64,000 bases of DNA from Alishewanella jeotgali KCTC 22429 (GTDB lineage: Bacteria > Pseudomonadota > Gammaproteobacteria > Enterobacterales > Alteromonadaceae), in contig NZ_AHTH01000013.1 in the NCBI RefSeq assembly GCF_000245735.1, positions 1-64,000 of the forward strand. Reading direction: 5' to 3'. The position numbers were made by a program, and so were the translations under genes. Under the pieces are notes generated by a model. That model saw nothing but the letters and a program-made list of their open reading frames with translations, was not told the origin of the DNA and made no database searches. Position 1 is the stretch's first letter; every line of letters begins with the position of its first letter. Below are positions 54,615 to 64,000 of this stretch, piece by piece.

Positions 54615-55475
54615 ATGATCCACAGTATGACTGCCTTTGCCCGCCACGAAACCAAAGCCAGCTGGGGCACCGCCCAGTGGGAGATCCGCTCGGTTAACCA
54701 GCGTTATTTAGAATCCTACTTTCGCTTACCAGAACAGTTCCGCGGTTTAGAAAGCCTGCTGCGCGACAAGCTGCGTAACAGCCTGCAACGCGGCAAAATT
54801 GAGGTGAATTTACGCTATCAGGCCAACCAGGCCGCCGGCGAACTGCAATTAAATGATGTGTTTGCCGAACAACTGCTGCAAAAAGCGCAGCAATTACTGC
54901 AAAAAGCACCGCAAGCAACGCTAAATATTGCCGACATTCTACGTTGGCCCGGCGTAATGGAAACCCCAAGCGAAGACTTAGACACCCTGCAAGCCGAACT
55001 GCTGGCCGGTTTCGACACCGCTTTACAAGACTTTTTAGCCGGCCGTGGCCGTGAAGGCGATGCTATAGAAGAGATGATCCAGCAGCGCTTAAGCGCCATC
55101 AGCGAACAAGTCGCTTTTGTGCGTAGTCATTTGCCACAAGCCATGCAGTGGCAGCGCGATCGTATTGTAAACCGCTTAAATGAAATCAAAACCGATTTAG
55201 ACCAAAGCCGCTTAGAACAGGAAATGGCGTTTTTAGCCTCGAAATCTGACGTCGCTGAAGAGCTCGACCGCCTCGATGCGCACATCAAAGAAACCCGCCA
55301 TACGCTGAAAAAAGGCGGCGCCTGCGGAAGGCGGTTAGATTTTATGATGCAGGAATTTAACCGCGAAGCGAATACGCTGTCTTCAAAAGCTATCAGCACC
55401 GAGATAACCAATGCCGCGGTAGAGCTTAAGGTGTTAATCGAGCAGATGCGTGAGCAGATCCAAAACGTGGAATAA
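54615..55475 (+). CDS. yicC: YicC family endoribonuclease
   Basis: Protein of 286 residues from 54615 (MIHSMTAFARHE). The N-terminal YicC domain (SVNQRYLESYFRLPEQFR) and the C-terminal DUF1732 part (HIKETRHTLKKGGACGRRLDFM) are present. YicC proteins are RNases linked to small-RNA turnover. It is divergent from rph, as in E. coli, and marks the end of the conserved block: the defence genes begin 91 bases downstream. Confidence 0.93.
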   Translation: MIHSMTAFARHETKASWGTAQWEIRSVNQRYLESYFRLPEQFRGLESLLRDKLRNSLQRGKIEVNLRYQANQAAGELQLNDVFAEQLLQKAQQLLQKAPQATLNIADILRWPGVMETPSEDLDTLQAELLAGFDTALQDFLAGRGREGDAIEEMIQQRLSAISEQVAFVRSHLPQAMQWQRDRIVNRLNEIKTDLDQSRLEQEMAFLASKSDVAEELDRLDAHIKETRHTLKKGGACGRRLDFMMQEFNREANTLSSKAISTEITNAAVELKVLIEQMREQIQNVE

Positions 55476-55523
55476 CATCGATTTATCTGGCCAAGCTCTG
55501 TATTGCCAAAATCGCCAGTATCA

Positions 55524-55550
55524 ATTTTGCCCATCGCAAAGATGGGCAAA
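55524..55550. terminator. Bidirectional terminator between yicC and hsdM
   Basis: TTTTGCCCATC - GCAAA - GATGGGCAAAA is an 11-bp perfect stem between convergent genes. T runs are only four bases long on each side. Confidence 0.65.
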
Positions 55551-55566
55551 AGGCAACCAGAACTAA

Positions 55567-57111
55567 CTAACTTTTGCTACTGACAGGCAAGCCTGCTGCT
55601 ACATCTTTAAAGGCTAATAATGCCGCTTCTAAATGATCGATGATTTCTTGCTGTAAGACATCTGGTGGTGGCAAGTTATCCAAATTATCCAGGCTGTCAT
55701 CTTTAAGCCAAAACACATCAAGGCTGGCTTTATCGCGGTTTATTAACTCGTCATAACTGTAGTATTTGAATCGCTCGGTCTCTTTGCGCTCATGGCGGTT
55801 TTCAGGATTGTAGCACTGAATAAATTCTTTAAGATCGCTCAACATCATTGGGCGCTGCTTAAGCGTAAAGTGTTTATTGGTTCTTAAATCGTAGAACCAA
55901 ATACCTTTGGTATGTACTTTTTCATCACGAGCCGCGTTATCAAAAAATACTACGTTCGCTTTTACGCCATTGGCATAAAAGATCCCTGTAGGTAAGCGCA
56001 AAATAGTGTGCACATCACAGTTATTTAACCATTTACGACGAATGCGCTCACCTGCACCGCCTTCAAATAACACGTTATCCGGTAATACTACTGCCGCTTT
56101 GCCGGTGTCTTTTAAGCTCGCGACAATATGCTGCAAAAAGTTAAGCTGCTTGTTGGTGGTGGTGGCCCAAAAGTCTTGCCGCTCATAGGTTAAGGCTTCT
56201 TTGTCTTCGCCACCTTCGGCATTGGTAATGGTCATGCTGCTTTTCTTACCAAATGGCGGGTTGGCTAATACGTAATCTACCTTATCCTCACCTTTGATTG
56301 CCGTTAGCAAGGCATCGGCGCGGGCCACTTTGGGCTCGCCATCAATACTGCCAATATTGTGTAAAAACAAATTCATTAAACACATGCGGCGGGTTGACGG
56401 CACTATCTCATTACCAAAGAAGGTCTCATCACGTAAAAATTTTACCTGATCTTTATTCAGCTTGGATTTGGCAATTGCGCTGGCATTATCTTTAGCCGGG
56501 TTCCAATGGCTCATGCCTTTTTCAATCCACTGTGCATCACCATAGGTGATCCAGTCATAGGCGCTTAAAAAGAACCCGCCGGTACCACAGGCAGGATCTA
56601 AAATTGTTTTCTTAGGTTCAGGACGCACACACGCCAGCATGGCATCAATTAATGGCCGTGGAGTAAAGTACTGGCCCGCTCCACTTTTGGTATCTTCTGC
56701 GTTCTTTTGTAGCAAACCTTCGTATAAATCACCTTTGGCATCGGCATCAAGGCTGATCCAGCTCTCTTCATCAATCATTTTAACAATGCGTGACAACTTA
56801 GCAGGATCGGGGATTTTATTTTCTGACTTATAAAAAATAGCGCCCAGCATGCCGGGGGCATCGGCAAGCTTTTTTAACACTCGACGGTATTGGTTTTCTA
56901 ACGCTTCACCCGTTAGGCCAGTTAAAGACTCCCAGTTGTAAGCGCCCGGTACTTTGGTATCGCGTAAGTACGGCGGCTGCGAGTATTCGTGGGCCATTTT
57001 TAAAAACAGCAAGTAAGTTAACTGCTCTAAATAATCTCCATAGCCAACACCGTCATCACGCAAGGTATGACAATAATTCCAAACTTTTTGTACTAAAGCG
57101 GGAGCGTTCAT
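55567..57111 (-). CDS. hsdM: Type I restriction-modification methyltransferase HsdM
   Basis: N6-adenine methyltransferase subunit of 514 residues. An N-terminal helical domain precedes the catalytic core, with motif I DPACGTGGFF at 172-181 and motif IV NPPFG at 284-288. It needs HsdS for specificity. Here it is the last gene of the operon, whereas type I operons usually keep hsdM next to hsdS. It overlaps the DUF1016 gene by four bases. Confidence 0.95.
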   Translation of the reverse strand: MNAPALVQKVWNYCHTLRDDGVGYGDYLEQLTYLLFLKMAHEYSQPPYLRDTKVPGAYNWESLTGLTGEALENQYRRVLKKLADAPGMLGAIFYKSENKIPDPAKLSRIVKMIDEESWISLDADAKGDLYEGLLQKNAEDTKSGAGQYFTPRPLIDAMLACVRPEPKKTILDPACGTGGFFLSAYDWITYGDAQWIEKGMSHWNPAKDNASAIAKSKLNKDQVKFLRDETFFGNEIVPSTRRMCLMNLFLHNIGSIDGEPKVARADALLTAIKGEDKVDYVLANPPFGKKSSMTITNAEGGEDKEALTYERQDFWATTTNKQLNFLQHIVASLKDTGKAAVVLPDNVLFEGGAGERIRRKWLNNCDVHTILRLPTGIFYANGVKANVVFFDNAARDEKVHTKGIWFYDLRTNKHFTLKQRPMMLSDLKEFIQCYNPENRHERKETERFKYYSYDELINRDKASLDVFWLKDDSLDNLDNLPPPDVLQQEIIDHLEAALLAFKDVAAGLPVSSKS

Positions 57112-58190
57112 TTTTTACTGTCCAAACCTGATTGACTGCACTCAGGTGTGCTGCTGTCTAAAAGCGTGCGATTATAGCGATTTTTGGCAGAATTAATCGC
57201 CTCTTGTAAGCGTTGATGTAATATTTCCCGTTTCGGCAACACGGCCAGGTACTCTGCGACGTGAATACCGGCATCATCCATTTCCAGCAATTCGATTTGC
57301 TCTTGGTTTTTTTGCGCACACAAAATAATACCAAGCGGTGCTTGCTCACCCGCTTGTCGCTCGTGTTTATCCAGCCAGCGCAGGTATAGTTCCATTTGGC
57401 CTTTGTAGTGGGGTTTGAATTTCCCCAGCTTTAAATCAATGGCCACTAAGCGTTTGAGCTGGCGATTATAAAATAATAAGTCGATGTAAAAATCATCGCC
57501 ATCAAGCTGAATGCGCTTTTGCCGCGCGATAAACGAAAAGCCGGCGCCAAGCTCCAGCAGAAATTGTTCAAGCTCGCGCAAAATGGCATCTTCTAAATCT
57601 TTTTCCAGGTAGTGATCATTCAGCCCCAAAAAGTCCAGCACATAGGGGTCTTTCAGTATCAGGTTAGCTGATACTTGCTTGTGCTCAGCTAATTGCTGTA
57701 ATTCAAGCTTAATGGTTTCAGCGGGCTTTTTTGACAGCGCTGTGCGCTCAAACAGCATACTATCGATACGCTCATTCAGCGTGCGCACACTCCAGGTTTC
57801 GGCTACGCACATCTGGGCATAAAACTCGCGGGCCAGCGGCTCTTTTAAACTAATCAGTAGCCTAAAATGGCTCCAGCTCAATTTTGCACACAGTGAGTGC
57901 AAAATCTCCTGCTGCGGGAATTGCTCATTAAGCTGCATCATGTAAGCAATGTTGCGCGCGCTCCAGCCTTTGCCAAAGCTTTCGGTAAGCTGCTTGGCTA
58001 AATTGGCCACTATTTGTTTGCCATATTCGGCACGCTCACCCTTTAACAACTCTTGGTTAATACGCTGGCCAATTTGCCAATACATCATGGTTAGCGCGGC
58101 ATTAACTGCCACCGCCGTTTGTTGTTTGGTTTGGATTATGAGGGTTTGGATATCTGAATACAGTTCAGGTGCGGCAGTAAGTGTTGGCAT
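57108..58190 (-). CDS. DUF1016 PD-(D/E)XK nuclease family protein (YhcG-like)
   Basis: Protein of 360 residues. The N-terminal DUF1016_N part (about 10-160, with YWQIGQRINQELLKGERAEYGK and GWSARNIAYMMQL) is followed by a nuclease domain. The predicted active site is Asp237 in DFYIDLLFYN, then Asp252 and Lys254 in AIDLKLGKFKP. Family members occur often in type I restriction loci, but their role is unclear. TAATG couples it to the HNH gene upstream and ATGA to hsdM downstream. The C-terminal tail is polar. Confidence 0.88.
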   Translation of the reverse strand: MPTLTAAPELYSDIQTLIIQTKQQTAVAVNAALTMMYWQIGQRINQELLKGERAEYGKQIVANLAKQLTESFGKGWSARNIAYMMQLNEQFPQQEILHSLCAKLSWSHFRLLISLKEPLAREFYAQMCVAETWSVRTLNERIDSMLFERTALSKKPAETIKLELQQLAEHKQVSANLILKDPYVLDFLGLNDHYLEKDLEDAILRELEQFLLELGAGFSFIARQKRIQLDGDDFYIDLLFYNRQLKRLVAIDLKLGKFKPHYKGQMELYLRWLDKHERQAGEQAPLGIILCAQKNQEQIELLEMDDAGIHVAEYLAVLPKREILHQRLQEAINSAKNRYNRTLLDSSTPECSQSGLDSKK

Positions 58191-59248
58191 TAGGCTGCCT
58201 CAATTTGTGGTAGAGCATCTCTAATTAAAGCTACAACTAGCGGATTACCAGATTCAAAATGAAATCTTAACATCCCAACTACCTTGTCTTTAAGGTACCC
58301 AAGGCCTTGCTCAGGGTTCCTTTTTTTGTGCCGCTCAAATTTCTTTAACCCCAACAAAACTTGTGCATCAGTACTTTGGCGATCTAGATCTAGGCACTGT
58401 AAGAAATCACTTGTTTCACTTAACACAGCTTCATAATTTGGCGAAAGCACAGTCTCTTTAAGACGCTGTTCTATTGAGAAAACTTCATTCCACGTTCTTG
58501 TCTCTTCAATATCGGGTGAAATGGATATATTCCAATTAGGTTTATCATCTAACAGTGTTATTGGATTTGTGTTGATTAAGCTAATTTCCGCATTGATAGT
58601 TCCGTAGGGATTTAATGCTTTTCTTCTGATATTATTTTTGAAAAGCAAATCCTGTTGGAGTTTATAGCTCTTATTACATTTTCCACCCATAGGGACTAAG
58701 TTAAAAAAGTTGGCTGCAGAAGTTACATACTTATCCTTCAGCAAATAATGATCTTCGTCTTCTCTTTTTTGGTCTGGTGCTTCAAAAGGCTCATAACCAC
58801 AAAATGGACAAGTTTTCACAGCCAGAGAATCGTAAATAGCCTTGTAGTGGGCATCTCTTGAGCCTGTTTCTTTAAGTAGCCTAAAACCTTCAATAAAGAC
58901 TAATTTCAAGCAATCAATAATCGGATTAAGTTCATCCTCGACTGCTAAGGGTGTGACTTCTCCAGCTAAAAGCCCCGCTATATTGTTTTGACTATCAATT
59001 AATAATAATGCCTTGTTTCTCTGCTCTTCGGTAAGTTGTACCGCTATATTTTCAAAATTTGCCAACAAGCCTTTTATCGTTTTTCGACTTGTTAATTTAT
59101 CTCTGTGTATTGGTGGCAAAATATCAGGCCAATCAGGTATCGCCGTTGCGCTATTTAAATTGTTAACAATAAGCGAAATTGCTTCGTAGATGCATTCATG
59201 CACCCAATTATTTTCTTGTGCAGCACTTAAAGGATAGTTAACTAGCAT
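58190..59248 (-). CDS. HNH nuclease-like protein, PtuB-like partner of the ATPase
   Basis: Protein of 352 residues. An N-terminal helical half of unknown kind precedes a treble-clef HNH region at about 147-195: CPFC (147-150), DEDHYLLKDKY with Asp166-His167, and NLVPMGGKCNKSYK with Cys191-Asn192. This order matches the PtuB-type HNH of Septu systems. The second zinc Cys pair is reduced to one Cys (GGKC where CxxC is expected), so zinc binding may differ. AT-richer than hsdM. It starts at the ATPase stop (TAATG). Confidence 0.75.
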   Translation of the reverse strand: MLVNYPLSAAQENNWVHECIYEAISLIVNNLNSATAIPDWPDILPPIHRDKLTSRKTIKGLLANFENIAVQLTEEQRNKALLLIDSQNNIAGLLAGEVTPLAVEDELNPIIDCLKLVFIEGFRLLKETGSRDAHYKAIYDSLAVKTCPFCGYEPFEAPDQKREDEDHYLLKDKYVTSAANFFNLVPMGGKCNKSYKLQQDLLFKNNIRRKALNPYGTINAEISLINTNPITLLDDKPNWNISISPDIEETRTWNEVFSIEQRLKETVLSPNYEAVLSETSDFLQCLDLDRQSTDAQVLLGLKKFERHKKRNPEQGLGYLKDKVVGMLRFHFESGNPLVVALIRDALPQIEAA

Positions 59249-60858
59249 TAATTATCCTCACTGGAAATATATGCTAACTTAGCAGCTAATTTCATTCGTT
59301 CTGGTGACTCACCAAGATTAGCGATAGCCTGCTGAATTTGATCTGCTGTTCCTTCTGCCATTAATTCTTTAATCTGATCTCTTGGCAACCCTGATATCTG
59401 TGGAGAAATATCAAAACATTCCGCAAGAATTGCATCAAATTTACTGCCATAAGTCTGAATTCTTGGCAATCTCGATTCAATCTCACCTTTTTCATTTTTA
59501 CTAAATATCAGGACATTATTCCGGTCCATATCAGATGGAACAAATGGTGAGTGAGTTGTTATTAAGCAGTCTTGCATTGCAGCCAGTGATTTTTCTGAGC
59601 GCTTTCCTTCGTTCTGACATTGCACTTTACTTGTAGTCGGCAGATTCATGATTTTGGAAATAAATTCCACTCGCCATTTGGGGTTAAAGTGGCTTTCTGG
59701 TTCATCCAGTAAAAATAAAACGTTAGGAAATGATGCCATGCAAAGGGTACCTAACAATTGCGTTAATTGATGTTCCCCATCTGATAGCGATACGTAGTCA
59801 ACAGGCGCTTCGCTTTTTTGTGAAATAAACTCAACACGCTCAAAACGAAATACTTTCTGCCGCTCCATGGGTTCAGGCAATCGCGATGCAAACCGGCGCT
59901 GCTCAACGCCTTTTTTAAAGGCCTCTCTATCTTGTTTGGGGATGATAAGATCATTAAGCATAGCGAGCTTATGGAAGCAAGAATATAGCTCCAAAGCACC
60001 TGACGCCCAATAGTGTCCAAAAGCTTGGTAGGTTGCATCTTGAACGAAAAAATCAAAAATGTAAGTTAGATTTTTAGCATCGTAATTAAAGCTAGTCGCT
60101 GAGCGCTGTAAATACTCTACATACTGCTGAAGCTCTTTGGTCAGCTGAACTTGGCTCTTTGCAGCTGAGCCATATTTTAGTTGTACAACACAGCGAAAAG
60201 AACGCAGCTTTTTAAGATTGGGTTCATGTATCAAGTGCTCACGCACATTTTTTGGGTTTAACAATAAATTTGCAATTAATACTTCTAGATTAGTACTGTA
60301 ATCAATTAGTAGCATTCTTGAGTCTAGAATAGGTAAAGCTGATTTATCTTTATCTAGAGCATTTTCGCTAACCTGTTTAGCATATCCAGCACGGCTAACA
60401 AAAAAAGGAATACTTAGCGTTTCATTATCGCCAGATGTATAACCGATTATCTTTGATGGTAACAGGGATTCAATTTTACTTAAGTCAGTCACCAAAGCCC
60501 ATTCGCCATCTACCAATGTTTCAATGACAATATCCATTTTTTTGCTCGCCACTTTACGGCGATACAGTTTAACCTTCTTAGCCTCCCCTTCAGAGATCAC
60601 AGAGTATTCCAGTTCAAACTGGATTTGATTATTGGGCGTACCTTGCTCTTCATTTGGCAAATACTTCCGAAATACGGCTTGAAATATTTCCGCAATAATT
60701 TGTAGAACTTGTGACTTACCCGTGCCATTTGGGCCAATTAAACATAGTGGTGAAAAAGAGCTTGTTTCAACCAAGCCATTACGAAAATTGATTGTCACGC
60801 CGTTGAGTAAACCACCGCAGGTATCAGCGTCAATTATATTTAATCGGATAAGTTTCAT
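59248..60858 (-). CDS. Restriction-associated AAA/ABC-type ATPase, PtuA-like
   Basis: Protein of 536 residues of the SMC/ABC-like AAA class. Walker A GPNGTGKS is at 42-49, an ABC-signature-like YVSLSDGEHQL at 355-365, Walker B LFLLDEPESHF at 381-391 and a switch His in ITTHSPF at 433-439. There is no TOPRIM nuclease domain, which separates it from OLD/Gabija proteins and fits PtuA-like ATPases that work with an HNH partner. It is nested between hsdS and the HNH gene, overlapping hsdS by four bases. An ATPase family tied to restriction systems has been named before, so the family itself is probably known. Confidence 0.82.
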   Translation of the reverse strand: MKLIRLNIIDADTCGGLLNGVTINFRNGLVETSSFSPLCLIGPNGTGKSQVLQIIAEIFQAVFRKYLPNEEQGTPNNQIQFELEYSVISEGEAKKVKLYRRKVASKKMDIVIETLVDGEWALVTDLSKIESLLPSKIIGYTSGDNETLSIPFFVSRAGYAKQVSENALDKDKSALPILDSRMLLIDYSTNLEVLIANLLLNPKNVREHLIHEPNLKKLRSFRCVVQLKYGSAAKSQVQLTKELQQYVEYLQRSATSFNYDAKNLTYIFDFFVQDATYQAFGHYWASGALELYSCFHKLAMLNDLIIPKQDREAFKKGVEQRRFASRLPEPMERQKVFRFERVEFISQKSEAPVDYVSLSDGEHQLTQLLGTLCMASFPNVLFLLDEPESHFNPKWRVEFISKIMNLPTTSKVQCQNEGKRSEKSLAAMQDCLITTHSPFVPSDMDRNNVLIFSKNEKGEIESRLPRIQTYGSKFDAILAECFDISPQISGLPRDQIKELMAEGTADQIQQAIANLGESPERMKLAAKLAYISSEDN

Positions 60859-62615
60859 TTATCTTCCTTGATAAACGTTATGGTATTCAATTTTTGGTCA
60901 AATACTTGTTTGAATAATGGTTTCTTAGCACTCAGAATTTCAAACACACAATCTTTTAACTGATCGTAGTCACCTTGAAAGGCTGTTTGTAATTCATCAA
61001 ACGTAAAGCTGTTGCCTTTGTAATTACCAACCCATTTGGCAAGTTCTTCAATTGTGATTTTTTTCATGGCTGATTTTGTCTTAATTTGCTTAGTTTTGGG
61101 CTTTTTTGCCAAGGCTTCACGTTCTCGTTTGATTTTTTCAAGCAATACCGAAGCAGGTTCGTCATTAGGGTCTTGCGACACCAATTGACCGGAAAAAGCC
61201 GACTTTAAGATATTTTTACGTTGGGCTTCAGATTGTTTTAAACCAAGTGCTGTTGCTTCAATTTGACGGTCAATCGAATCAAACTCGTTAGTGATGCCTT
61301 GTATCAAAGCAAGCTGCTCAGCAAAAGGTGGAAGAGGTATTGCTAGTTCACCTAACTTAGTACCATTCACATTTGCCTGTCCGGCTGTTTGATTCATTAC
61401 TTCAGCTAACCACTTTTTACCCAGAACAGAATTTATATAGTGTGCGGCTATTTCAGGTAAAAAATGCTCCGTGAATGTAACAGATATCAGATATGAAGCA
61501 TAAGAAACAGGCTTACCAATGTCTCTGTAAACTGCTGATTTACCGACTAACTCAGCACTGTTGGTTCGATTAAATAGTAAATCGCCATTATTTAGTAATA
61601 AGTCCGGAAACTCTTTATGATCAACAGGTAAATACTTTAGATTACTGTAATCGAGCTTCCCATCTTGAATGTTACCCATACGCAGTACAGGCACCCCTGA
61701 ACTATCATCATTCGTTTTTGATGATGAACCATAGCGTTTATTTAGAGCTAATTGATCAACACTCGCCCACACCCAGCCTTCTGGTAGCTTTGGTAAATCG
61801 GTAGTATCTGGCTGAACCGGTTCGGGGTATGCGTCTTGCCAGTTTTTAGGTGGCGTTTTGCCTTTTTCGGCAAACTCAGCGAGCTTTTGTTGCTGCCACT
61901 GCTCGCGGCGCTGTTTTAAAATACGCGCTAATAGTTGCTCACCTGTTTCTTGCACTTGGGCGCGGTTTTCAGCGCGCCATCGCTCGGTCAGTGATCCTTC
62001 AACCGCACTTTTTAATAGCGATTGGCGGTATTGGCTAAGTTTGGTTTGTGCGGCTTTGAGTTCTTCAATCCCGTTGTCAAACTCGGAAAATAGCTCCTCT
62101 AGCTTTTCTACCAATCTATCTTGTTCTTTTCTTGTTGGTAGCGGTAATGGGATACTCTGAATAGTTTTTGAAGAAAGATGCTTTACTGTCACAGCAGATG
62201 TGCTTTGATTTATTGCACCTAAATAACCTGGTAGTAGGTACGCTAAAAATTTTTGATTATAAAAATTTTCATTTGCAGTCAATTTGCAAACGCGTTGATT
62301 TAACAGTGCAATGCCGCTTCGCCAAAATGCTGAGTGGAAGTCACCATCCATTCCGACCAGTAAATCGCCACTATTCACAATGTAGTCTTTAGAGTAATCA
62401 CCTTCGTAAGTTGTATCGGTTTTACCTGAAACGATATCTCTGATTCTGATGAGAGGTAAACCTTTTCCGGTGTTAAAACCACTTGATGAGAATGCATAGC
62501 CATTGACGACTTCCACAACATCTTGAAGCGTTACTCTTTCCCATGATTCATGTTTGTTCAGCAACCCTGTTGTGTCTTCTGTAACTAATTCATTTATATC
62601 TTTAGAAAATGCCAT
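60855..62615 (-). CDS. hsdS: Type I restriction-modification specificity subunit HsdS
   Basis: DNA-recognition subunit of 586 residues. Two target recognition domains (about 20-165 and 280-425) each end in a helical conserved region (KEQDRLVEKLEELFSEFDNG; AEQLALIQGITNEFDSIDRQ). Residues about 500-586 form a Lys-rich linker plus a small helical domain (TIEELAKWVGNYKGNSFTFD). The ATG at 62615 is one base after the hsdR stop; a TTG at 62624 has a better spaced AGGA and could be the true start. Confidence 0.92.
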   Translation of the reverse strand: MAFSKDINELVTEDTTGLLNKHESWERVTLQDVVEVVNGYAFSSSGFNTGKGLPLIRIRDIVSGKTDTTYEGDYSKDYIVNSGDLLVGMDGDFHSAFWRSGIALLNQRVCKLTANENFYNQKFLAYLLPGYLGAINQSTSAVTVKHLSSKTIQSIPLPLPTRKEQDRLVEKLEELFSEFDNGIEELKAAQTKLSQYRQSLLKSAVEGSLTERWRAENRAQVQETGEQLLARILKQRREQWQQQKLAEFAEKGKTPPKNWQDAYPEPVQPDTTDLPKLPEGWVWASVDQLALNKRYGSSSKTNDDSSGVPVLRMGNIQDGKLDYSNLKYLPVDHKEFPDLLLNNGDLLFNRTNSAELVGKSAVYRDIGKPVSYASYLISVTFTEHFLPEIAAHYINSVLGKKWLAEVMNQTAGQANVNGTKLGELAIPLPPFAEQLALIQGITNEFDSIDRQIEATALGLKQSEAQRKNILKSAFSGQLVSQDPNDEPASVLLEKIKREREALAKKPKTKQIKTKSAMKKITIEELAKWVGNYKGNSFTFDELQTAFQGDYDQLKDCVFEILSAKKPLFKQVFDQKLNTITFIKEDK

Positions 62616-62616
62616 A

Positions 62617-64000
62617 CTATGCAATTAATTCCTGATTCATTTCAGCCAATAGGCTATCTAACTCGTTATTTTGGTCGCTGCTGTTTGGGTTGCTAACAGC
62701 AAACAAGCTCCAGGCTTTTTGCAGCCCGCCGTGGTCAGCAAAGGGGCTGTAGTCAAAATCATCCCGCTCAATGGCGCAGCTGGCGGCAATATGATCTTTG
62801 ATCAAACGTAACCACTGGGTTTGCTGCTCGGTAAATGCGGTGGAGCGCTGGGCATTATGGCGGAAAATCCACTTTTTAAACTTGGCATCAACGTGTTCGG
62901 CAAAGGGTTTTAGCTCGGTATCTAAACCAATGGCAAAGCGGATCAGCGAGATGATATCAGTCAGTTGCCTTTGGCTGTTTACTTTCTTATTGGTATTTTT
63001 ACCCGCTGTTTGCTGATTGCCTTGGCTGTTACTGTGGCTGTTATTCAGGCGCTCATAAGCGCTCCACAACTTTTCGGTGGTCAGTAATAGTGGTGGTTTG
63101 CTTAAGGCCTGGTGCAAATCTTCTAACATGGCAAAGGTTAAGCCCCTGCGCTGGTAAGGCTGCTGGTAAAAAAAGCTTAACGCTTGAATATCGTCTTTAT
63201 GCTGCTCGATAAAGTCTTTAAAGCTTTGAATAACTTTTGCTGCATTATCAGCAGCCTGGCTGCTATAACCCGAATAGGTCACCGTATCTAAGTTGATATG
63301 GTCGATAAGCTGCTCACGCTGTCGGCGGGCAGATTCTATACCTTCCCGTGTGGCGGGGTTATCAAGCGTCTGACAGGCTTGATCAATCAATTGCTCTTTA
63401 GCAGTTTGGCGCTCGCTATCGGTTAAAGTCTCTTCGCCGCGGGTAATGCCTGCGGCTTTGGCATTAGCAAGCGCTTGTGTGTTTATCGCATCCGGATCGA
63501 GGGCGGTGAGTAGCTCTCTGGCTACTTCCGGCAGTGGTTTACCGGTGAGCTTTTCAATTGCTGCCAGCCCGCGTTTATCAAGTTGTTTACTTAAACGGGT
63601 TAAACGGTTGGCCAGGCTTTGAATGGTGTCATCATCGCGATGGCCCATCGCCACGCCTTGCAATAAGTCTTTCAGTGATAGGTTTGGACTGCGCTCTAGC
63701 GGCCGGCTTTCGGTTTTGAGTGATTTTTCCACGCCGACAGCATCAATCAGCACAAAGCGGTCTTTATCGCTGGTGGCGCTTTTGCTAACATTGTGCAGGT
63801 CTTCATAGCTTAAGCTGCGCACGCCACGGCCTTTCATTTGTTCGTAATAGCCTTTGCTGCGCACATCGCGCATAAACAGCAATATCTCAAGTGGTTTTAC
63901 GTCTGTGCCTGTGGCAATCATATCCACCGTTACGGCAATGCGCGGATTAAAGTCGTTGCGAAAATCATTCAAAATGCCATCAGGATCTTTGGTGTTATAG
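62617..64000 (-). CDS. hsdR: Type I restriction subunit HsdR, C-terminal part (runs off window)
   Basis: The frame is open to the window edge, giving at least 460 C-terminal residues of the translocase/endonuclease. The visible part starts in the second helicase domain (DPDGILNDFRNDFNPRIAVT, then MIATGTDVKPLEILLFMRDV and YYEQMKGRGVR, helicase motifs V and VI). The rest is the EcoEI-type C-terminal domain that docks on the methylase. The nuclease and first helicase domains lie outside. It is the most upstream gene seen, so the operon promoter is not in the window. Confidence 0.93.
   Translation of the reverse strand, partial: YNTKDPDGILNDFRNDFNPRIAVTVDMIATGTDVKPLEILLFMRDVRSKGYYEQMKGRGVRSLSYEDLHNVSKSATSDKDRFVLIDAVGVEKSLKTESRPLERSPNLSLKDLLQGVAMGHRDDDTIQSLANRLTRLSKQLDKRGLAAIEKLTGKPLPEVARELLTALDPDAINTQALANAKAAGITRGEETLTDSERQTAKEQLIDQACQTLDNPATREGIESARRQREQLIDHINLDTVTYSGYSSQAADNAAKVIQSFKDFIEQHKDDIQALSFFYQQPYQRRGLTFAMLEDLHQALSKPPLLLTTEKLWSAYERLNNSHSNSQGNQQTAGKNTNKKVNSQRQLTDIISLIRFAIGLDTELKPFAEHVDAKFKKWIFRHNAQRSTAFTEQQTQWLRLIKDHIAASCAIERDDFDYSPFADHGGLQKAWSLFAVSNPNSSDQNNELDSLLAEMNQELIA

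Follow-up and report, generated by a model that had tools for sequence, protein, structure and literature searches.

A Septu-like ATPase-HNH gene pair recurs behind hsdS in type I restriction operons, with a predicted winged-helix tail on most HsdS subunits

Genes of the operon

Analysis of the first 64,000 nucleotides of contig NZ_AHTH01000013.1 from Alishewanella jeotgali KCTC 22429 (the window) uncovered a type I restriction-modification operon that encodes, between hsdS and hsdM, a PtuA-like ATPase, an HNH protein and a DUF1016 protein. The ATPase-HNH pair is conserved behind hsdS far beyond this genome, and a C-terminal tail on HsdS accompanies the ATPase; these two features, like the gene order and the protein families, were observed directly. 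We propose, with a probability of about 0.6, that the locus is a type I operon with an EcoEI-like HsdR and a dedicated Septu-like effector, which would be docked on the methylase complex (M-S) and gated by it. The features of the locus are as follows.

62617..64000 within the window, minus strand: hsdR, C-terminal 460 aa, with an EcoEI_R_C match
60855..62615, minus strand: hsdS, with two Methylase_S stretches and its ATG at 62615
60858..61112, minus strand: C-terminal extension of HsdS, identified by homology, specificity searches and structure prediction
59248..60858, minus strand: ATPase, 536 aa, PtuA-like ABC/AAA, TIGR04435
58190..59248, minus strand: HNH protein, 352 aa, HNH core at residues ~145-205
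57108..58190, minus strand: DUF1016/YhcG PD-(D/E)XK protein, 360 aa, with DUF1016_N and YhcG_C
55567..57111, minus strand: hsdM, 514 aa, N6-adenine methyltransferase

The open reading frames give the order hsdR-hsdS-ATPase-HNH-DUF1016-hsdM on the minus strand. The whole hsdR is open and encodes 951 aa, running in contig numbering from a start at 65472, past the window, to a stop at 62617 (locus L002), and the open hsdR, hsdM and hsdS with their domains identify an EcoEI-like type I restriction-modification system. The hsdR stop and the hsdS ATG are 1 base apart, the hsdS/ATPase and DUF1016/hsdM junctions are ATGA overlaps of 4 nt, and the ATPase/HNH and HNH/DUF1016 junctions are TAATG overlaps of 1 nt. 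A preliminary description of this DNA had placed three extra genes between hsdS and hsdM and had listed the same tight junctions; the reading frames of all six genes and each junction, read in turn, bear this out. Overlapping gene ends alone are ordinary in operons, and what goes beyond chance is the recurrence of the ATPase-hsdS adjacency rather than the overlaps themselves.

The window ATPase is a member of the NCBIfam family TIGR04435, scoring 574.8 bits against a curated cut-off of 300 over residues 1-531 of 536. The label of this entry, 'restriction system-associated AAA family ATPase', indicates that curators had already linked the family to restriction loci; the entry describes one protein family without mentioning an HNH partner, a domain on HsdS or any function, and its accession was not found in the open-access literature searched. 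Residues that we take to form the Walker A, LSDGE signature, Walker B and H-loop motifs are retained, and no TOPRIM model matched the protein in a Pfam domain search. With the ATPase profile, the highest-ranking solved structures were PtuA proteins from type I-A retrons (3.2e-20, and 1.9e-19 for that of Ec78), followed by the chain named PtuA in PDB 8ee4, presumably a Septu structure (2.5e-14), and AriA of PARIS (7e-11), a system whose second protein, AriB, is a TOPRIM nuclease. The PADLOC PtuA1 model PDLC00293 matches residues 1-487 of the window ATPase with 157 bits, and PtuA1 is matched by 24/24 aligned family members at 1e-10 (24 of the 26 frames of >=450 aa, two frames from L039 being left out). 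The model for the retron Ec78 effector PtuA (NF041760) gave 43 bits against a cut-off of 500. The structural and the PADLOC matches both support the earlier assignment of a PtuA-like ATPase. A phage origin of the gene was considered and set aside, as a scan of viral contigs with the window ATPase, which reaches close relatives only, returned no relative.

In the HNH protein, the motif C..CG...DH...CN...K is invariant across 22 aligned relatives (frames of >=300 aa; L038, which is broken, and L039, L040, L065 and L068, which are short or cut, were left out). The window protein (58193-59248) and that of L070 read GGKCN and so lack a second cysteine that most relatives carry shortly ahead of the one in CN. 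No Pfam HNH model matched the window protein, and PF01844 weakly matched 2/22 relatives. At E<=0.001 the PADLOC candidates PDC-M62B and PDC-M01B match 22/22 of the proteins and the PtuB model 19/22; in the window protein, the member whose matched range was read, the PtuB match covers residues ~144-204 only, at 18 bits. An hhalign comparison of the HNH profile with three Septu-type HNH proteins aligned 62 columns, again confined to the core. The predicted structure (mean pLDDT 87) has helical stretches flanking the core on both sides, and a Foldseek search of the Protein Data Bank with it gave nothing significant (best E 1.7). The PtuB-like character claimed in the preliminary description thus holds for the core and fails beyond it, and a plain PtuB identity for the window protein was rejected.

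Recurrence of the pair and its changing companions

In order to establish how far this arrangement extends, 27 neighbourhoods were read, drawn from TIGR04435 genomes, from eight loci (two of them weak) among the matches listed by a genome-contig scan, and from four plasmids. The family is rare among the genomes searched: scores above the cut-off were found in 2/398 genomes of the window's phylum (one being the window's own; the copy in G050 is split), in 3/369 genomes of the window's class, the window's own included, and in 8/395 genomes from the phylum to which Flavobacterium belongs (Bacteroidota in what follows). In 26/26 loci having hsdS, the ATPase gene lies directly downstream of it on the same strand, which rules out a chance adjacency, and the two frames overlap in 22 loci by longest frame, or 21 with the annotated start of L043. 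An HNH gene follows the ATPase in 25 loci by profile and in L065 by frame reading and a PADLOC match, while the 27th locus, L039, holds a Septu-type pair by PADLOC without hsd genes. Co-occurrence of ATPase, HNH and hsd genes, which the preliminary description had put forward as a check, was found in 26/27 loci, the window's included, with the pair behind hsdS; these loci come from four phyla, on chromosomes and on plasmids, the plasmid hosts being Pseudomonadota, Bacteroidota, Bacillota and Cyanobacteriota.

Tree distances of the ATPase correlate with those of the HNH protein at r=0.88 over 21 loci (r=0.89 over 18 core loci) and with those of HsdM at r=0.63 (r=0.81 over the core loci), with a Mantel p of 0.0002 for each correlation, the lowest value the test allows; 21/27 loci entered the comparison, as L034, L038, L039, L044, L065 and L070 are without a full set of long frames. 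Because the pair recurs behind hsdS in several phyla, and because the HsdS tail described below accompanies it, these sequence comparisons suggest that the pair belongs to the restriction enzyme as an integral partner and is no chance neighbour. Such partnerships probably arose more than once, since hsdS is followed by Septu-type pairs in two other lineages as well. In Ohtaekwangia koreensis (L040:1773-13526) the Septu-type pair belongs to an hsdR-x-hsdS-ATPase-HNH-hsdM operon with an extra 1111-aa protein, and in L065:5275-10600 strong matches to Septu (PtuA1 623 bits, PtuB 249 bits) come after hsdM-hsdS, with no adjoining hsdR.

The restriction subunit is a variable companion. An hsdR gene lies beside 16/22 assessable operons and is absent beside six (L033, L042, L043, L063, L064 and L065), for each of which 5 to 7 kb upstream of hsdM was inspected, with 1.5 kb of downstream coverage in L033. 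The remaining 5/27 loci were not assessable, being short contigs (L034, L060), decayed (L038, L070) or without hsd genes (L039). Thus, hsdR is optional beside M-S-ATPase-HNH. This holds for the operon's surroundings and is not claimed for whole genomes: HSDR_N genes occur elsewhere in four genomes with R-less operons (G568, G596, G721, G398), so an hsdR acting in trans is possible. HSDR_N had no match in the plasmid records L042 and L043, where the plasmids were searched and not their hosts' chromosomes.

The DUF1016 gene was found in the window locus only, that is, in 1/27 ATPase loci. The window protein was correctly described as a PD-(D/E)XK DUF1016 protein, both Pfam halves scoring far over their cut-offs (DUF1016_N 161.6 bits against 32.8, YhcG_C 169.4 bits against 32.5), and YhcG_C is found at E<=1e-20 in 26/143 genomes of the window's class, the window's among them. 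We examined 32 of the 34 DUF1016 copies other than the window's, leaving out two with an internal stop. Several of these stretches are short contigs, so the neighbour counts are lower bounds: the order hsdM-DUF1016-hsdS is present in at least 6/32 (L116, L117, L118, L119, L136, L138), DUF1016 overlaps hsdR in one (L137), and it lies behind or <=0.4 kb from another methylase in four (L113, L127, L132, L141). The HNH profile had no match in any of the 32 stretches. As the DUF1016 profile detected its target in all 32, it is sensitive enough for its silence at the other ATPase loci to carry weight.

The preliminary description had regarded all six genes, three of them for nucleases, as one combined system. 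The six do overlap or abut in the window, but DUF1016 is missing from every other ATPase locus, and where it stands between hsdM and hsdS elsewhere, the ATPase-HNH pair is absent. Judged by conservation, the six-gene reading is contradicted; we rejected it and consider it highly improbable. From the same comparisons, DUF1016 is best read as an extra passenger of hsd operons, independently acquired and outside the conserved module, and the conserved unit as M-S-ATPase-HNH. This distinction between module and passenger matters for counts of defence systems that are based on gene neighbourhoods.

Some further variation was seen among these loci. L070:7353-13267 is a decayed copy in which the ATPase and hsdM are each split into two frames and no adjoining hsdR was found. 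Other genes occupy operon slots at L037:6166-6981 (KilA-N-like, as we take it), at L041:7504-8427 (annotated as a GIY-YIG nuclease) and at L068:5597-6676 (presumably Fic-like). In L113:1-5471, an ATPase-profile match lies upstream, beside the DUF1016 gene and a large methylase.

The HsdS tail and proposed docking of the pair

Most HsdS proteins of these operons end in a C-terminal extension, which was first noticed by eye in the alignment, with profiles built afterwards; 85 aa were used in the searches, and ~65 aa make up the predicted fold. AlphaFold2 models the last 65 residues with an H-E-H-H-E-E topology at pLDDT ~80, so that the tail is a predicted winged-helix domain. A fold search returned many winged-helix proteins, none significant, and is suggestive only; its best match (E 0.12) is the C-terminal domain of a kleisin in a structure that also contains an SMC ATPase head.

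The tail was then followed across groups by leaving sequences out. A profile built from 9 non-Bacteroidota HsdS recovers 9/9 Bacteroidota HsdS at E<=1.2e-5 among 434 open reading frames, with the next match at E=0.68. When the same 9 rows were run against 38 whole Bacteroidota genomes, including 8 ATPase-bearing ones that were not used for the profile, the tail beside the ATPase was the best match in 7/8 of the latter (E 1.5e-16 to 2.6e-4). The 30 genomes without the ATPase gave no match below E=0.1 (best 0.12), although 22 of them contain 44 other HsdS frames, counted by hand. Across the genomes covered, the HsdS tail accompanies the ATPase. What appears new here is this tail as a link between the type I complex and the ATPase-HNH pair, and we propose it as the docking domain for the pair.

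In the mechanism we favour, the ATPase and the HNH protein would form a PtuA/PtuB-like nuclease pair that docks on M-S through the winged-helix domain at the HsdS end. M-S would keep the pair silent, or position it, and would let it fire on sensing infection. The trigger might be a phage inhibitor that disables the enzyme, as PrrC is freed from EcoprrI, or an encounter of M-S with unmethylated target DNA, and the fired HNH enzyme would then cut phage DNA or host tRNA. The operons without R suggest that it is M-S, and not R, whose state is read. Docking, gating, trigger and substrate are all inferred.

Several points weigh against this mechanism. Its docking step is read from sequence and from predictions of single proteins. 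The reverse leave-out, with a Bacteroidota profile run on the others, recovers 7/9 at E<1e-3 and misses L033 and L041, and the whole-genome leave-out misses G481 (no match at E<=1). Searches with an 18-row tail profile speak for the specificity of the tail but do not test sensitivity, because their strong matches are rows of the profile: among 395 Bacteroidota genomes these fall in the 8 TIGR04435 genomes only, with three further weak matches (E 0.002-0.007), one of which (L081) proved on reading to be an SMC-like frame, and among 185 genomes of the window's class matches are confined to the window genome and G874, both ATPase-bearing (G050 and G1121 also carry the tail, their inclusion among the 185 not being shown). 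In each genome the searches score no more than a limited set of candidates that pass a first look. Furthermore, 8/26 hsdS loci are without a clear tail: the ATPases of L065, L068 and L071 fall under the TIGR04435 cut-off, the score of L040 is not shown, L035, L042 and L043 have divergent HsdS C-termini of their own (L042 reaching E=0.011 with one profile), and L038 is broken. A last point comes from TgvAB of VPI-2 in Vibrio cholerae, a gene pair that lies within a type I operon and whose defence, according to the passages of the literature drawn on here (PMC3874165, PMC11555353, PMC12707154, PMC2928727, PMC11411939, PMC8565338, PMC2610378), is independent of the restriction activity of HsdR, so that physical nesting need not imply regulation.

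TgvAB is also the model for the main rival, in which the ATPase-HNH pair would be an autonomous defence, expressed and spread by way of the hsd operon. The pair without hsd genes in L039 fits such independent cargo, but that locus is the sole exception to the position behind hsdS and is Septu-type by PADLOC, and the HsdS tail that accompanies the ATPase also speaks against it; we regard this rival as unlikely. TgvAB itself, in the same passages, is a GmrSD-related modification-dependent enzyme, unlike the pair described here, and RloA/RloB of Campylobacter jejuni, likewise two genes inserted into a type I locus, is given no function in the part of its source drawn on.

Possible triggers, known systems and genomic surroundings

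Within docking and gating by M-S, the two triggers lead to different roles. One possibility, which we hold tentatively, is a guard of the PrrC kind, in which a latent pair fires only when a phage anti-restriction protein blocks the type I enzyme, and the cell is killed or arrested. In the passages drawn on, PrrC is embedded in the EcoprrI type I operon, held silent by the enzyme and released by Stp, a peptide of T4; the PtuAB proteins of retron Eco7, expressed on their own, are toxic and deplete tRNA-Tyr; and AriA of PARIS, a relative of the ATPase, recognises the anti-restriction protein Ocr. The back-up role when restriction fails that the preliminary description suggested has a direct precedent in PrrC. 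The 6/22 operons with no adjoining hsdR count against a guard, as there is perhaps no restriction to guard in them, although the HSDR_N genes elsewhere in four such genomes would still permit one in trans.

A second role, which we consider doubtful, is that of a target-directed effector: M-S would recognise unmethylated sites and the docked ATPase-HNH pair would cut, beside HsdR or replacing it. The constant partners are M, S, the ATPase and the HNH protein, and not R; it is HsdS, the subunit that recognises the target, that bears the extra domain; and the passages drawn on report degradation of DNA by Septu PtuAB. Against this, hsdR is retained in 16/22 assessable operons and is open in the window, and both the catalysis and its direction to a target are putative. 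Somewhat more doubtful still is a distinct type I-like class, in which M-S would carry a Septu-like ATPase-HNH effector on the HsdS winged-helix tail and HsdR would be an optional second effector, gone in some operons. If the pair does stand in for HsdR in some of them, a definition of type I systems that rests on the R subunit would have to be broadened.

Compared with known systems, the operon is a genuine and conserved variation on embedded defence. It shares with PrrC/EcoprrI, a type IC operon, an ATP-binding toxin gene nested among hsd genes and, as proposed here, gating by the restriction complex; it differs, in a comparison by description and not by sequence, in having an ATPase and a separate HNH protein where PrrC is a single protein cutting tRNA-Lys, and in its HsdS tail. 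With Septu and the retron Ec78 PtuA-PtuB it shares a homologous PtuA-type ATPase and an HNH core that matches PtuB, but the ATPase falls far below the Ec78 PtuA cut-off, the HNH protein is flanked by helical stretches and is not a full-length PtuB-type protein, and hsd genes adjoin. PARIS likewise combines an ATPase with a nuclease, and differs in its location, which the passages drawn on place in a P4 satellite hotspot and not in an hsd operon. Among the papers listed by the searches of open-access literature, no description of an M-S-ATPase-HNH system was found, and the system seems undescribed, although the ATPase family already bears its restriction-associated name at NCBI. The link between a toxin and a restriction enzyme has, by the passages drawn on, been worked out in few cases, PrrC being the well-studied one, and the present family, found in four phyla and visibly equipped with a candidate docking domain on HsdS, makes this link testable through one short stretch.

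Two observations concern the surroundings of the operon. Outside the window, where the contig ends, a frame with an internal stop lies immediately upstream of hsdR (L002:15474-15667, contig 65473-65666); its DNA presumably resembles the tail of an Mrr-type restriction protein, and it is perhaps a decayed neighbour. On the other side, an insertion site between yicC and gmk was considered but is not supported, as 12 same-genus relatives had no gmk-like motif in the <=1.5 kb beside yicC; such a motif was seen in 2/20 loci, each belonging to a different family within the order than the window. By frame lengths only, the frames beside the yicC 3' end (54618-55570 in the window) vary in length and strand among same-genus relatives, so this may be a variable site.

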